Made by a program: the position numbers and the translations under genes
NCBI GenBank assembly: GCA_018003015.1
Contig: JAGNEZ010000005.1
Coordinates: 62,001-126,000 of the forward strand
DNA from: Phycisphaerae bacterium
GTDB lineage: Bacteria; Planctomycetota; Phycisphaerae; UBA1845; PWPN01
DNA: 64,000 bases
Direction of reading: 5' to 3'
Notes under the pieces: generated by a model
Told to the model about the DNA's origin: nothing
What the model saw: the letters and a program-made list of their open reading frames with translations, nothing else
Database searches by the model: none
In this document: positions 14,737-33,709 of the stretch, one piece after another
Layout of the letters: every line of letters starts with the position of its first letter
How positions within the stretch are numbered: position 1 is the first letter of the stretch

Positions 14737-15718
14737 CAGCGGTTTCCTTCGGATCCTCGGCGGCCCGCGACTTCGCCAGGCCACCAGCAATAACCACACG
14801 CCCCCCGCCTGCGACCACCACGACGGTGCCCGCCGCGACTTCTCACTGCACCTGGAGCCCCATACGTTCAGAAGGGCCGGGCCGGCGCTGAACTCGGGCC
14901 AGCTCTCGACGGAAGAACCTGCGCTTGCGGGGCCGGCGCTCCCGCCGCTTACCCGCGTGGGAGCGGTCCCCACATACCAGTCTCGCCCGGCCTATTGTAA
15001 CCCGACGTGGAGCACCTGTCATGGCACGTCAGCCTGACCGGGTGGACGATCTCGACCATTTCAGCGGCCCGGCGAAGTGGGAGATCACATTACATTCAGG
15101 CCGTCAGCAATGGAGTCCAGCTTTTCGCCGCGCTGCCGGCACTCGTCGCCTCCCGGAAACCCCCAAATGACTTCAAAACCCAGCACAGGTGTCACAACGA
15201 CTCTTCATACCGCCTCAACCGCTCCGGTTCCACCGACCGGGAGGCCCAAGGCCTCGCCGGCCAACCCGGAGAGCGGCATGAGAAGAACCTCCGCGTCCAC
15301 GGACCGAAACCCTCTCGTTCCTGGCGAACTTGCACAGAGTCTTCTACTTACCCAAACTACCAAATCGAGGGAGTGGGCGGATTTCTGCTGGTGAGCTCTT
15401 GACGACAAGCAAGGATGCCGGATACTCTGCCCGCAACCGCATGAGTCTTGCGGAGTAGCGCAGTGCGGACCGCCCAGGACTCAGGGATGAGTGATGGAGC
15501 GTTTCGCTTTTGCATGGGCCGGGTGGCCCCCGTGTGCAATTCAATCCAACGGGCGGCAAGGAAGATCATTCAGTTCGGAACCGGTGATACTCCGGCGAGG
15601 AGTTTCTGCCGGCCTCCATCGTGGGTACTGAGCTGTTCGGAAGACACCCGCAATCCGATCGGGGCACATGCAGGCCTCGCATCGGTCCATCCTAGGGAAA
15701 TCGTTGCTGGGAGGCCCT
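14737..15718. other. Long gene-free region upstream of the acyl carrier protein gene
   Basis: About 980 bases without a credible gene; open frames here are short, mutually overlapping and have no family-like sequence. The only structured stretch I see is the first copy of the promoter/leader element at 15399-15474. The rest may hold the OPT transporter promoter, which I could not place. Confidence 0.5.
15399..15474 (+). promoter_or_regulatory. Repeated promoter/leader element, copy 1
   Basis: TTGACG (15399-15404), a 16-base spacer and GATACT (15421-15426) resemble a sigma-70 promoter. They are followed by a transcript start region almost identical to copy 2 at 16438: CTGCCCGCAACCGCATG continuing through TTGCGGAGTAGCGCAGT. 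CCGCA (15437-15441) and TGCGG (15449-15453) form a hairpin around a seven-base loop. The stem is unchanged in the other copy while the loop differs in sequence and length, which suggests selection on RNA structure. It lies about 245 bases before the acyl carrier protein gene. Its function as promoter is inferred. Confidence 0.55.
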
Positions 15719-15976
15719 ATGAGCAACCATGACATCCGGGCCACGGTGATCCGGGTCCTCGAGACCGAGACCGGCTACAATCTGGCTCGACTTGACCGCG
15801 ACTCGGATCTGCGCGCCCAGGTCGACATCGACTCGATGCAGTATGTGGCCATTTCGGTGGCGATCGAGAACGCCCTGGGTATCGAACTGCCCATCGAAGT
15901 CCTGAGGGTGCGGACACTCAACGAGTTCATGGCAATGGTGGAAGCGGAGGTCGCCAGGATTTTGGCCCCGTTGTAG
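15719..15976 (+). CDS. Acyl carrier protein
   Basis: An 85-residue carrier that holds acyl chains on a 4'-phosphopantetheine arm. The attachment Ser is residue 39 in VDIDSMQYVAI, corresponding to the DSL motif with Met instead of Leu. The downstream helix IENALGIELPIEVLRV also fits the family. ATG at 15719 follows GGGAGG with good spacing; an ATG 17 codons upstream gives a non-homologous leader and is rejected. It is not next to fatty-acid synthesis genes (fab genes); the next genes are an acyl-adenylating enzyme and a PhcB-like methyltransferase. A dedicated carrier for a specialised acyl product is therefore more likely than the housekeeping AcpP. Confidence 0.9.
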   Translation: MSNHDIRATVIRVLETETGYNLARLDRDSDLRAQVDIDSMQYVAISVAIENALGIELPIEVLRVRTLNEFMAMVEAEVARILAPL

Positions 15977-16415
15977 GCCCTCTCTACACTTGTCCCTGCA
16001 GGTATCCCAGCGCGCGAGAAGTGGTAGCCCGCATGGTTCCGGTTCAGGAGAGCGCAATTCCTGCGCCCCGAATGCGGGCGACGGTGTGCTCCGACACGTC
16101 GGCACGCGGGAGCGCATGGGCTCAGTTGGTCCACGGCCGTTTCCGCCTCGTCGCCGCTCACGGAGCGCGCGTTTCCGATTCCGAGCGAGAAGGCCTGACG
16201 TCTTATCGGTCGCGCAAGTGTTGCCGACGGGTGGCTGCACCGGCGGTCCGCGTCGGCTCGACCCGCCTCGTGCCGGTTTGTGAGCTGGATTCAGCTTGCG
16301 CAGGGAATGGCCGCTTTCTGGAACCAGCAGATGGGCAATGAGCCACAGGGACTTTCTCTAATCTAAAAAGCACCTGAACGAAACATTACCCATCCTAACA
16401 ACTCGTCCTGACTCC

Positions 16416-16438
16416 AGGAAAAAGTGGTGGTTTTTCCT
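16416..16438. repeat. Perfect 8-base inverted repeat abutting a -35 box
   Basis: AGGAAAAA (16416-16423), a seven-base loop and TTTTTCCT (16431-16438). The right arm ends on the first base of the TTGACG box of the copy 2 promoter. It could be an operator that blocks the promoter, or the terminator of an upstream transcript. It is absent from copy 1. Confidence 0.5.
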
Positions 16439-16514
16439 TGACGCCGTTCGAAGATGTGAGATACTCTGCCCGTAACCGCATGGGGTTTTGCGGAGTAGCG
16501 CAGTTGGGATCGCC
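16438..16514 (+). promoter_or_regulatory. Repeated promoter/leader element, copy 2
   Basis: TTGACG (16438-16443), 16-base spacer, GATACT (16460-16465), then the same leader as copy 1: CTGCCCGTAACCGCATG, TTGCGGAGTAGCGCAGT and a GGATCGCC tail. The hairpin stem CCGCA (16476-16480) / TGCGG (16489-16493) is conserved, but its loop is eight bases and differs in sequence. It lies about 260 bases before the start of the acyl-adenylating enzyme, the same arrangement as copy 1 before the carrier protein. Shared control of the two genes is inferred. Confidence 0.55.
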
Positions 16515-16570
16515 TGCACCTCACGGACGGGTTGGCCGGTGATCGGCTTTTCACGGGTCAGGTCTTCCGC

Positions 16571-16618
16571 ATGTCCGGCCACAACCGACACACGATGTCC
16601 GGCCACAACCGACACACG
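16571..16618 (+). repeat. Tandem 24-base direct duplication
   Basis: Two head-to-tail copies of a 24-base unit that starts ATGTCCGGCCACAACC and ends GACACACG (16571-16594 and 16595-16618). They are identical, so the duplication is recent or maintained. It may be slippage, a protein-binding pair, or the end of a lost insertion sequence; no transposase is nearby. Confidence 0.7.
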
Positions 16619-18202: not shown

Positions 18203-19108
18203 GTGACTCACATGTTTCTGGATCAGATCTATCGCCAGATGCGCGAAAACGGAACGGCGTTCACCGCCTGTGCCGATGAGCTGCTGGACGGGCTTCGGCG
18301 CACCCGGGCTTCGATGTCCGCCGACGAGTGGAAAGCCTTTGCCGTGCGGGTCTCCATGAACCACCCGCTCCGGCCGCTCCTGCTCGAGGACCCGTTCACT
18401 CGCCGTGCGGCCGAGAAGCCTCGCGGATACGCCGGCGACGCGGTGATGATCGACTACATCTACGGCCACTACGAAATCAACGGAACGTCGAAACGCGGCC
18501 GGGCCGTCCTGGACTATCTCCTGAGCCGGCCGCTCTCGCAGGCCGTACGCAACCGGCGGGACGCCCTGACCCGGGCGATCGATGACATGGCCGCGGAAAG
18601 GCCGGACGCGGAGGTGCTCGCTCTGGCCTGCGGTCACCTGAGAGAGGCAATGGACTGCAAGGCGATTGTTCAGCGCCGGCTCGGCCGGTTCGTCGCCCTG
18701 GATCACGATCCCAACAGCCTCAGGATCGTGGAAGAACAGTTCAGAGCATGCGGCGTGGTCACCGTCTGCCGATCGGTGTTCGACATGAACTTCGCCGACC
18801 TCGGGCGGTTCGACCTCATCTACAGCGCGGGGCTCTACGACTACATCTGGCAGGGTGCGGCCAAGCAGCTGACCAGCTACGTGTTCGCGATGCTGAAACC
18901 GGGCGGCAGGCTGCTGATTGCCAACGTCACCCCCGAGGAACCCGATGCCGGGTACATGGAAGCGATCATGGACTGGTGGCTGATCTACCGGACCGATGAA
19001 CAGCTCGCCGCCCTCGCCCAACAGATTCCTCGATCCGAGATCGGGGCCCAGAGCGTGTTCAGGGATCCGACCGGATGTGTCGCATTCCTGGAACTCGTTC
19101 GCGCCTGA
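18203..19108 (+). CDS. PhcB-like SAM-dependent methyltransferase (fatty-acid methyl ester type)
   Basis: A 301-residue protein. The motif KPRGYAGDAVMIDYIYG (about 73-89) and the degenerate AdoMet loop VLALACGHLREAM resemble the methyltransferase family of Ralstonia PhcB, which makes 3-hydroxy fatty acid methyl ester signals. Other Rossmann-fold landmarks are VALDHDPNSL, FDLIYSAGLYDYI and LKPGGRLLIANV. A GTG at 18203 or an ATG nine bases later may be the start. It sits 65 bases after the acyl-adenylating enzyme on the same strand, downstream of the acyl carrier gene, and faces a FadL-like channel gene. The family match is from memory of motifs. The substrate is inferred from family and context. 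Confidence 0.72.
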   Translation: MTHMFLDQIYRQMRENGTAFTACADELLDGLRRTRASMSADEWKAFAVRVSMNHPLRPLLLEDPFTRRAAEKPRGYAGDAVMIDYIYGHYEINGTSKRGRAVLDYLLSRPLSQAVRNRRDALTRAIDDMAAERPDAEVLALACGHLREAMDCKAIVQRRLGRFVALDHDPNSLRIVEEQFRACGVVTVCRSVFDMNFADLGRFDLIYSAGLYDYIWQGAAKQLTSYVFAMLKPGGRLLIANVTPEEPDAGYMEAIMDWWLIYRTDEQLAALAQQIPRSEIGAQSVFRDPTGCVAFLELVRA

Positions 19109-19122
19109 AGGGTATCCGCCGC

Positions 19123-19173
19123 GGACCGGAAGGCCGTTCGAGCGAACCGGTCCCGAGCCCGGGCCAGCCGGGC
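19123..19173. terminator. Two adjacent hairpins between convergent genes
   Basis: GGACCGG (19123-19129) pairs with CCGGTCC (19147-19153), with TTCG/CGAA pairing inside the loop. Right after it GCCCGG (19157-19162) pairs with CCGGGC (19168-19173) around a five-base loop. They lie in the gap between the convergent methyltransferase and FadL-like genes, where termination from both sides is expected. No T-run is present. Confidence 0.4.
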
Positions 19174-19231
19174 CCGCAGGCGGCCTCGCATCTCCACCGA
19201 CCGCATGGCCTTCCTCGGGCCCTCCCTGAGG

Positions 19232-20521
19232 TCACCAACTGAAACCGAAGCCCATCGAGATGAGATGCTGCGTCTGGGCAAGGTGTCCGTCGCCGTAGTC
19301 GGTGCCCAGCAGAATGTGGCTGCTTCCAGGACCGTCGATGGATCTCGGGAAGGCGATGACGTAGCCGCCGCCGACCCACCATTTCCGGGTCTCATAACGC
19401 AGCCCGATCGTCCCGTGATGGGTGGACGTGATCGATCCCATGGGGGTGAGGTTGTAGCGATCGGTGTTGGGCGTGGCGAAGTGATAGCCCGCACCGAGCC
19501 GCCAATGCTCGCTGAGCTTGAATTCGCTGCCCAGAATGAACGCCCACTGATCGCAATACCCCAGCGGAAAGGGACAGCTGAAGTCAATCGGCGAGTGGAT
19601 TCGGATGCGGGTGCGGTGAAACGTGCTCTGGTCATAGTTGAGCCACCGGACCTCGCCGATGATCTTCAGCCACGGGGTTGCATCCCAGGCGGCGCCAGCG
19701 GCGATTCGCTGGGCGCCCTTCAGATCCTCGAGGGCCACTTCGCCGAGGGACACGGGAAGACAACCCAAGAGCGAGGCCTTGCCTTTCCCGCCCGACAGAT
19801 CACCGAACCAGGTCGGCGAACGATAGGCGAGTCCTAACGATAGCGTCTCCGCCGCCTTGTAGTGCAGGCCGGCGTTGAAACCGCCGCCGTAGGCGTACCC
19901 GCGACCGAACTCGATGTCGGCCGGTCCCAGGACGGTGCTGAATTCCGACGTGGCGGCTTCGAATCGTCCGCCGAGCCCGAAGGACAGCTTGTCGGTCAGC
20001 TTGTACCCCAGGCTGATCGGCATGCTGACCATCTTCATGTCCGAAGCTTCACGCCGGTTCCAGAAGGGAATGAACAGATGCCGGAACGAAAAGCGGGTGC
20101 CAAGGCCAGCCTTGGAGTTCAGGGCAACACCAAAGGTCAGCCGGTCGTTGAGCGGAACGGCAATGCCCGCGTTGACCAGCGGAATGAGCTTGACTTCCGA
20201 GTCGTCGGAATCCAGCGGCCCTCGCCATCGGACGTCAAGGATGCCCAGCTTGCCGGCGAAATCGAGTTTGCACAAATCACGCGGTGAAAGGCACAGGTTG
20301 GCGGGATTATCGATCTGGGAGAGAACGGAATCGCCGACAGCCACATCCGCGCCTCCGCGGGCCCGGGCCTGCATGCTCACGCCGATCGGTTCGACGCCGT
20401 CGGTCGCGAGTGCCGCAAACGACCATGCCCAGGTGAGCCAGAGGACACCAATGAGCCGCGGTGGTTTGACCCGGAGGAACCTGCCCACGATGTGCTGAAC
20501 CTCGCGCCCGATGAACAACAT
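19232..20521 (-). CDS. FadL/OMPP1-family outer-membrane channel for hydrophobic compounds
   Basis: Members of this family are outer-membrane beta-barrels that take up long-chain fatty acids, aromatic hydrocarbons and, in some bacteria, long acyl signals. The product (about 429 residues) has an N-terminal hydrophobic export signal ending around WAWSFAALATDG, the mature N-terminal pattern ARGGADVAVGDSVLSQIDNP (the NPA-type hatch region) and alternating strands throughout. The last strand ends in Phe-Gly-Phe-Ser-Trp, with an aromatic C-terminal residue as barrel assembly needs. ATG at 20521 lacks a good ribosome site; a GTG at 20488 with GAGG upstream is an alternative. It is convergent with the methyltransferase gene, which suggests a role in passing the acyl product across the outer membrane. 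Confidence 0.8.
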   Translation of the reverse strand: MLFIGREVQHIVGRFLRVKPPRLIGVLWLTWAWSFAALATDGVEPIGVSMQARARGGADVAVGDSVLSQIDNPANLCLSPRDLCKLDFAGKLGILDVRWRGPLDSDDSEVKLIPLVNAGIAVPLNDRLTFGVALNSKAGLGTRFSFRHLFIPFWNRREASDMKMVSMPISLGYKLTDKLSFGLGGRFEAATSEFSTVLGPADIEFGRGYAYGGGFNAGLHYKAAETLSLGLAYRSPTWFGDLSGGKGKASLLGCLPVSLGEVALEDLKGAQRIAAGAAWDATPWLKIIGEVRWLNYDQSTFHRTRIRIHSPIDFSCPFPLGYCDQWAFILGSEFKLSEHWRLGAGYHFATPNTDRYNLTPMGSITSTHHGTIGLRYETRKWWVGGGYVIAFPRSIDGPGSSHILLGTDYGDGHLAQTQHLISMGFGFSW

Positions 20522-21155
20522 CCGAATGAAATGCCCGCGCCACGGCCAGTACCGCTGCCCAAAGGAACACCCACGCCGACCCGGTTGAATCGGAATCCCG
20601 GCCTCTGACTCGACGTGCGGAACCCTCGACTGGCCTCCGCCGGGCCGGCACACGCGACCCGACAGACCCACTCTCCGCTGGCATCAACCCCCGCCGAACG
20701 CGCCTGTCCGGCCCTTCAAAGGGGTGATCGGCACACCGTATATCGGCCGGAAGCCGGCCCACCTTGTGGGACATTCGGCCGTCAGGGGCAAGACGGACGA
20801 GCGTCACGCGGCCGGAGGTCACGAAGCCGCCGGGCGGTCCGACCACCCTCTGGAACCGTCGGAAGGGGGGAACAAGAACTACGGCAGCGGCCGATAAGTC
20901 GAAGTGGATTGCCCGTTCGGGAGTTCAGCACCCGCTCAATCTGGTCGATGGGATGAAGGGGGACTGCGTCAGGCACCTGCGACCGCCTCTGTGAAGAATA
21001 GTCCGCCGCCTGGCGCCTGAAGTTGTCCATCGGGCCGGCGCCATATGACACCACCCGCCCGGGCGCCAGCCTGCCTTGTACCACGGGCCGGGGATCCTGC
21101 CAGCCCCGATGGGGCAGAGCAGGAGTGGCACTTCGTCGCGAGCACCGCGCCGAAC
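20522..21155. other. Divergent intergenic region
   Basis: About 630 bases between the divergent FadL-like and hybrid kinase genes. Both coding starts are uncertain, so the true gap may be shorter. I see no gene, no clear -35/-10 pair and no repeat here. Confidence 0.4.
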
Positions 21156-33145: not shown

Positions 33146-33709
33146 TCAGGTACCACGAAACGCAACCCGGCTCATGACCGCGTAAGCCGGCCCCGAAGCC
33201 GACAAGATCGACTGAAACACAACCAGTTCCGTCGCGGCGAATGAACCGCCGGAGAAACGCGATTCCCCAGCCACCGCGGCCCGAAGATCGTCCGCGACGG
33301 CTGAGGCCTTCACCCTCCCCAGGGTCAGATGAGGATGAAAGCGGCGGTCTTCAGGCGGATACCCCAGAGATGCGAAAGCGCTCTCGCAGGCCTGCTGACA
33401 ATCGAGCAACCCCGCCGGTGGATCGACCAGCCCCGCCCATACGATCCGGACGGGCCCGTGGGGAGGGAAGCAGCCGGTCCCGCCGATCCGAATGCCGAAA
33501 GGCAAACAGGCGGCAGCCACGAGCTCGGCAGCACGACACACGTTCGGCAATTGATCGTCGGGGACCTCGCCCAGGAACTTGACGGTCAGGTGGATCTGGT
33601 CCGGGCGGGTCCAACGCACGCCTGGAGCCGCCGCACGCAGCCGGTCCTGCAGCGACCGCAGACGCTCATGGACCGCCTCAGGCAACTCGATCGCCAGGAA
33701 ACAGCGCAT
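33146..33709 (-). CDS. thpR: RNA 2',3'-cyclic phosphodiesterase (ThpR, 2H family)
   Basis: A 187-residue enzyme of the 2H phosphoesterase family, which opens 2',3'-cyclic phosphates on RNA ends and was earlier called 2'-5' RNA ligase. The N-terminus MRCFLAIELPEAVHERL and both catalytic HxT motifs, HLTVKFLGE (about 40) and HPHLTLGRVK (about 127), are present with normal spacing. Cytoplasmic. No Shine-Dalgarno is obvious before the ATG; the upstream gene ends 12 bases earlier, so it is probably expressed in the same transcript as the small membrane protein and HEAT protein. Confidence 0.92.
   Translation of the reverse strand: MRCFLAIELPEAVHERLRSLQDRLRAAAPGVRWTRPDQIHLTVKFLGEVPDDQLPNVCRAAELVAAACLPFGIRIGGTGCFPPHGPVRIVWAGLVDPPAGLLDCQQACESAFASLGYPPEDRRFHPHLTLGRVKASAVADDLRAAVAGESRFSGGSFAATELVVFQSILSASGPAYAVMSRVAFRGT

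Follow-up and report, generated by a model that had tools for sequence, protein, structure and literature searches.

A duplicated, putative sigma-70-type promoter cassette in front of carrier protein and acyl ligase genes of a Phycisphaerae bacterium

A gene cluster for a carrier protein, an acyl ligase and a methyltransferase

The window analysed here, a stretch of 64,000 nucleotides from a Phycisphaerae bacterium (assembly GCA_018003015.1, contig JAGNEZ010000005.1), harbors genes for an acyl/peptidyl carrier protein, an AMP-binding acyl ligase and a class I SAM-dependent methyltransferase (Table 1). The ligase is long-chain acyl-CoA ligase-like, with scores below the NCBIfam cut-offs, and the methyltransferase gene probably belongs to the same operon as the ligase gene. 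A FadL-like outer-membrane protein is encoded convergently to the methyltransferase (18203-20671 region), and together with the carrier and ligase these two proteins point to an acyl-ester pathway. Among plasmid homologs of the methyltransferase, the closest come from Rhizobium (38-40% identity); in the one region inspected, the gene had neither a carrier nor a ligase gene beside it. Further along the window, ARAGORN called a selenocysteine tRNA (tca) at 33188-33281.

Table 1 Features of the carrier and ligase locus, in window coordinates. G001 is the genus mate of the source genome and G002 a more distant Phycisphaerae genome.
Feature	Position	Strand	Remarks
Candidate upstream regulatory block, copy 1	15320..15398	+	Contains TTACCCAAACTACCAAATCG at 15348-15367; 0/79 changes relative to the genus mate
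-35 hexamer TTGACG, copy 1	15399..15404	+	Identical in both copies, G001 and the distant ortholog G002
Probable -10 TACTCT, copy 1	15423..15428	+	TACTCTG also in the promoter of G002; agrees with the TAnnnT -10 upstream of other genes of the source genome
Dyad CTGC-N6-CCGCA-N7-TGCGG-N6-GCAG, copy 1	15427..15463	+	In the predicted early transcript; candidate operator or 5' hairpin
Weaker downstream similarity, copy 1 to copy 2	15464..15545	+	Reached in 23/2000 shuffles
Acyl/peptidyl carrier protein, 85 aa, PP-binding	15719..15976	+	PF00550, E 1.2e-9
Upstream box TTACCCATCCTAACAACTCG, copy 2	16386..16405	+	16/20 identical to the copy 1 box
-35 hexamer TTGACG, copy 2	16438..16443	+	Identical in both copies, G001 and G002
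Probable -10 TACTCT, copy 2	16462..16467	+	Same basis as the copy 1 -10
Dyad CTGC-N6-CCGCA-N8-TGCGG-N6-GCAG, copy 2	16466..16503	+	One outer position changed in G001 copy 2 (GCAG to ACAG)
Weaker downstream similarity, copy 2 to copy 1	16504..16584	+	Same comparison as copy 1
AMP-binding acyl ligase, 453 aa	16776..18137	+	PF00501, E 8.9e-51
Class I SAM-dependent methyltransferase	18203..19108	+	PF13649, E 4.1e-8; 65 bases after the ligase gene

A cassette is repeated upstream of the carrier and ligase genes

The sequence TTGACG-N16-GATACT is present at 15399-15426 (copy 1) and, on the same strand and 1039 bases away, at 16438-16465 (copy 2). In both places it is followed by a nearly identical leader with the arms CCGCA/TGCGG, which enclose a 7-nt loop, TGAGTCT, in copy 1 (15437-15453) and an 8-nt loop, TGGGGTTT, in copy 2 (16476-16493). 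These coordinates match those of a preliminary description of the DNA, which had reported two 76-base promoter/leader elements in the same direction, each about 250 bases before a start codon. By our measurement the carrier ATG (15719) lies ~245 bases past the copy 1 element and the ligase ATG (16776) ~262 bases past that of copy 2.

The repeat is real and stands above chance. Local alignment of copy 1 with copy 2 gave a score of 51, the highest score among 2000 dinucleotide shuffles being 20, and the best-conserved part, the 52 bases after GATACT, alone scores 67 against a shuffle maximum of 28. Its true extent is probably greater than 76 bases, with similarity reaching weakly over ~15348-15545 in copy 1 and ~16386-16584 in copy 2. 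On the upstream side the copies share a 20-base box, TTACCCA..CTA.CAA.TCG, located 51 (copy 1) and 52 (copy 2) bases 5' of the -35 hexamer; taken alone this box is weakly significant, its score being reached by 65 of the 2000 shuffles. The flanks of the two copies show no clear homology, the similarity being limited to the repeat, which we therefore describe as a cassette of ~180-200 bases. Because the flanks lack homology, we rejected a tandem duplication that had included the carrier gene and been followed by decay of the second carrier. Within the ligase leader, 24 bases (ATGTCCGGCCACAACCGACACACG) are also perfectly duplicated in tandem at 16571-16618; the genus mate has them once.

The hexamers are fixed and the cassette cores change slowly

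Our cross-species comparison covers two close species, the source genome (G000) and its genus mate (G001), and one distant ortholog from G002. The promoter as first described, TTGACG-N16-GATACT, matches the sigma-70 consensus at 9 of 12 positions in each copy. Across 460 kb of the source genome, TTGACR-N16-18-TAnnnT lies before genes and is absent from within them, and TTGACG-N18-TACTCT, with a hexamer that begins two bases downstream of GATACT (15421-15426 and 16460-16465), fits the TAnnnT -10 seen before genes. The cassette thereby resembles the sigma-70 housekeeping promoters of this planctomycete, which have a TTGACG -35, a TAnnnT -10 and a spacer of 17-18 bp, but differs from them in its exact TACTCTG and its dyad, both of which occur only at this cluster. 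Since the G002 ortholog shares TACTCTG alone (it has GCTACT, not GATACT), the -10 box is probably TACTCT rather than GATACT; the -35 hexamer of the preliminary description stands, and its -10 is better replaced.

Between G000 and G001, none of the 24 hexamer positions has changed while 5 of 32 spacer positions have, so that all changes in the promoters fall within the spacer, as had been noted from the two copies. Such a combination of fixed hexamers and variable spacers has the appearance of a promoter. The two cassette cores differ at 4 of 93 positions, compared to 138 of 986 (14%) in non-element intergenic DNA, which corresponds to ~3-fold slower change (p 0.003). Thus, the slow change of the cores and the restriction of promoter changes to the spacer support function as promoters and regulatory sites, and both copies have been kept under constraint. 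A neutral recent duplication without function would agree with the finding of two copies only, close together, but is highly improbable given this slow change between species and given that the cores are still ~90% identical to each other while their neighbouring sequence is at background similarity.

The stretch 15320-15398, directly upstream of copy 1, has no changes in 79 positions relative to the 14% background (Fisher p 1e-5) and is probably another regulatory region serving the carrier promoter; these unchanged bases would therefore give copy 1 additional upstream control. Two coding candidates, a coding leader and a gene in the 15977-16385 spacer, were rejected on account of frame-breaking indels between the two species and of substitutions that are not enriched at third positions.

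The cassette is unique to the cluster and its promoter core is shared across genera

In the whole 6.86-Mb source genome the cassette is present in only two copies. A 185-position sequence model, like searches with the 23-base core (≤3 mismatches), the 17-base right half and the upstream box, retrieves just these two sites; the one exception is a weak 2-mismatch match to the box elsewhere. G001 carries both copies at corresponding places, spaced 1037 bases apart. When the sequence model was applied to 150 relatives and to 392 genomes from across the phylum, no other genome had a convincing copy. The weak model matches in these ~540 genomes number as expected by chance, and the best four, which we inspected, look unrelated, except for one to a tRNA-Met gene.

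This exception, a G075 tRNA-Met(CAT) gene with its promoter, is the best outside match of the 150-genome search, and it bears on the idea that the repeat is a decayed or tRNA-like element, in which TGCGGAGTAGCGCAGTTGG resembles the 5' half of an initiator tRNA. The tRNA-Met(CAT) of the source genome itself (on L099) has TGCGG.GT.G.GCAGTTGG in common with copy 2. The copies resemble the genome's own tRNAs only marginally, however, as shuffles reach the similarity in 2 of 200 cases for copy 2 and in 65 of 200 for copy 1, and there is no match to a tRNA model and no 3' half. Derivation from a tRNA was rejected for this marginal similarity and appears to us exceedingly improbable.

The carrier-ligase pair is itself rare and was found in one further relative, G002, where a 51%-identical ligase is encoded directly behind the carrier. 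The two genes form a simple operon there, with <70 bases between them and one promoter upstream of the carrier gene, the core of which is TTGACG-N17-TACTCTG (TTTTTTCTTGACGC-N16-TACTCTG). In G000 and G001, TTGACG-N15-19-TACTCTG is found at the cassette sites only, and in G002 it is found at the promoter of the orthologous operon and at one site inside another ORF. Other TTGACG-TACTCTG sites in 200 relatives are at chance level and were set aside (by our count, 38 non-cluster matches versus 41 in the reversed control); thus, the promoter core is conserved with the genes across genera. Two copies in the source genome and in its genus mate, a single promoter in G002 and chance levels elsewhere together indicate that the cassette seems to be a cluster-specific promoter that was duplicated upon separate spacing of carrier and ligase. 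The carrier leader of G002 (L028:422-510) also contains two near-identical units of ~35 bases right after the promoter, each with two CCGTGCGGG motifs.

The dyad more likely acts as DNA than as RNA

Just downstream of the -10, all four sequences (both copies in G000 and G001) contain the dyad CTGC-N6-CCGCA-N7/8-TGCGG-N6-GCAG. Compared to shuffles its symmetry is not beyond chance, and the spacing of its half-sites differs by 1 bp between the copies. The dyad would fit a repressor operator and a 5'-terminal mRNA hairpin equally well. The preliminary description had emphasized a stem that is kept while its loop changes, which is literally true of the 7-nt and 8-nt loops, but an unvarying stem does not argue for pairing: none of the five stem pairs differs among the four sequences, which leaves no covariation. 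On the sense strand, consensus folding did not surpass that of column-shuffled alignments for any of the lengths covered (p 0.08-0.52 for those with a predicted structure), and single-sequence folding gave z-scores of 0 to -1.3. One antisense window, among 12 window-and-strand combinations, reached p 0.005 and reflects the invariant dyad. Neither the region nor either of the two copies gave a credible Rfam match up to E 5-10, and no intrinsic terminator was found on the sense strand.

These results bear first on the structured regulatory RNA leader proposed earlier, be it a riboswitch, an attenuator or a pseudoknotted element. The leader length of ~280-300 nt is in keeping with such an element, and the loop could pair with downstream sequence (TGAGTC/GACTCA in copy 1, TGGGGT/ACCTCA in copy 2) with two compensated positions. 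Compensated helices are, however, as frequent in column-shuffled alignments (P 0.36), one pair of this helix is broken in G001 copy 1, and no orthologous structure is present in G002. With the invariant stem pairs, folding at the level of shuffles and neither an Rfam match nor a terminator, a leader of this kind is very unlikely.

A regulatory-RNA reading is possible only in a weaker form, a short 5'-terminal stem. Transcription starting at A15435/A15436 (A16474/A16475 in copy 2) would place the CCGCA/TGCGG stem at the 5' end of both mRNAs and shield them from decay, so that the two messages would have similar lifetimes. There is precedent in the ompA and papA mRNAs, whose 5'-terminal stem-loops (cited in PMC3997798) protect them from decay. 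As in those cases, a potential stem lies a few bases at most from the inferred start; with TACTCT as the -10, it would begin 1-2 bases after the transcription start. All four sequences retain the stem, with a loop that is free in sequence and length, and an RNA would tolerate a loop longer or shorter by one base, whereas such a change is awkward for a DNA operator. Unlike ompA and papA, the stem here is weak (5 bp), carries no structural conservation signal and is not kept in the distant ortholog, the carrier leader of G002 having four direct TGCGG motifs in place of the CCGCA/TGCGG hairpin. In addition to the invariant pairs and the shuffle-level folding of the sense strand, the unpaired AGTAGCGCAGT is conserved as much as the stem, and in copy 2 RNAfold prefers other pairings. 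We consider a protective 5' hairpin unlikely. We favour action of the dyad as DNA on two grounds: conservation is as strong outside the stem as within it, and G002 lacks the hairpin. Counted against it is the 1-bp difference in half-site spacing, an uncommon feature for the binding site of a dimeric repressor.

Proposed organization of the locus

Taken together, the repeat is probably a duplicated sigma-70-type promoter cassette that is specific to the carrier/ligase cluster and in which the dyad most likely acts as DNA. Each copy would consist of the upstream box, the -35 TTGACG, a -10 that is probably TACTCT (spacer 18) and the conserved 37-bp dyad, which begins at the end of the -10 and would span the predicted transcription start, providing a putative regulator-binding site over the start point. 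Copy 1 would drive the carrier gene and copy 2 the ligase and methyltransferase genes, and with one cassette per transcript the two transcripts would thus answer to one common signal. Joint expression of carrier and ligase is most likely, as the natural reading of two conserved promoter copies; to this extent the earlier proposal that the element couples the two genes is retained, whereas coupling via a regulatory RNA is unsupported. In the related genus one such promoter would drive a carrier and ligase operon; here the second copy probably brought the ligase back under control after ~400 bases of other sequence had come to lie between the genes. A stricter proposal, in which a dedicated regulator (a protein or an mRNA 5' hairpin) reads the 37-base element as DNA or RNA in a genus-specific two-gene regulon and so matches the amounts of carrier and ligase, seems to us quite unlikely.

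The mechanism of regulation is itself ordinary in kind. As in the tandem or duplicated promoter-operator modules by which bacteria jointly control adjacent transcription units, the same -35 and -10 and an operator-like dyad precede two functionally linked genes, but the dyad of this cassette has no match outside the genus. The locus would illustrate that, when an operon is split, control can be preserved by copying the promoter module rather than leaving the genes under different control, and it would assign the carrier, ligase and methyltransferase to a single regulated pathway in a planctomycete group that has received little study.
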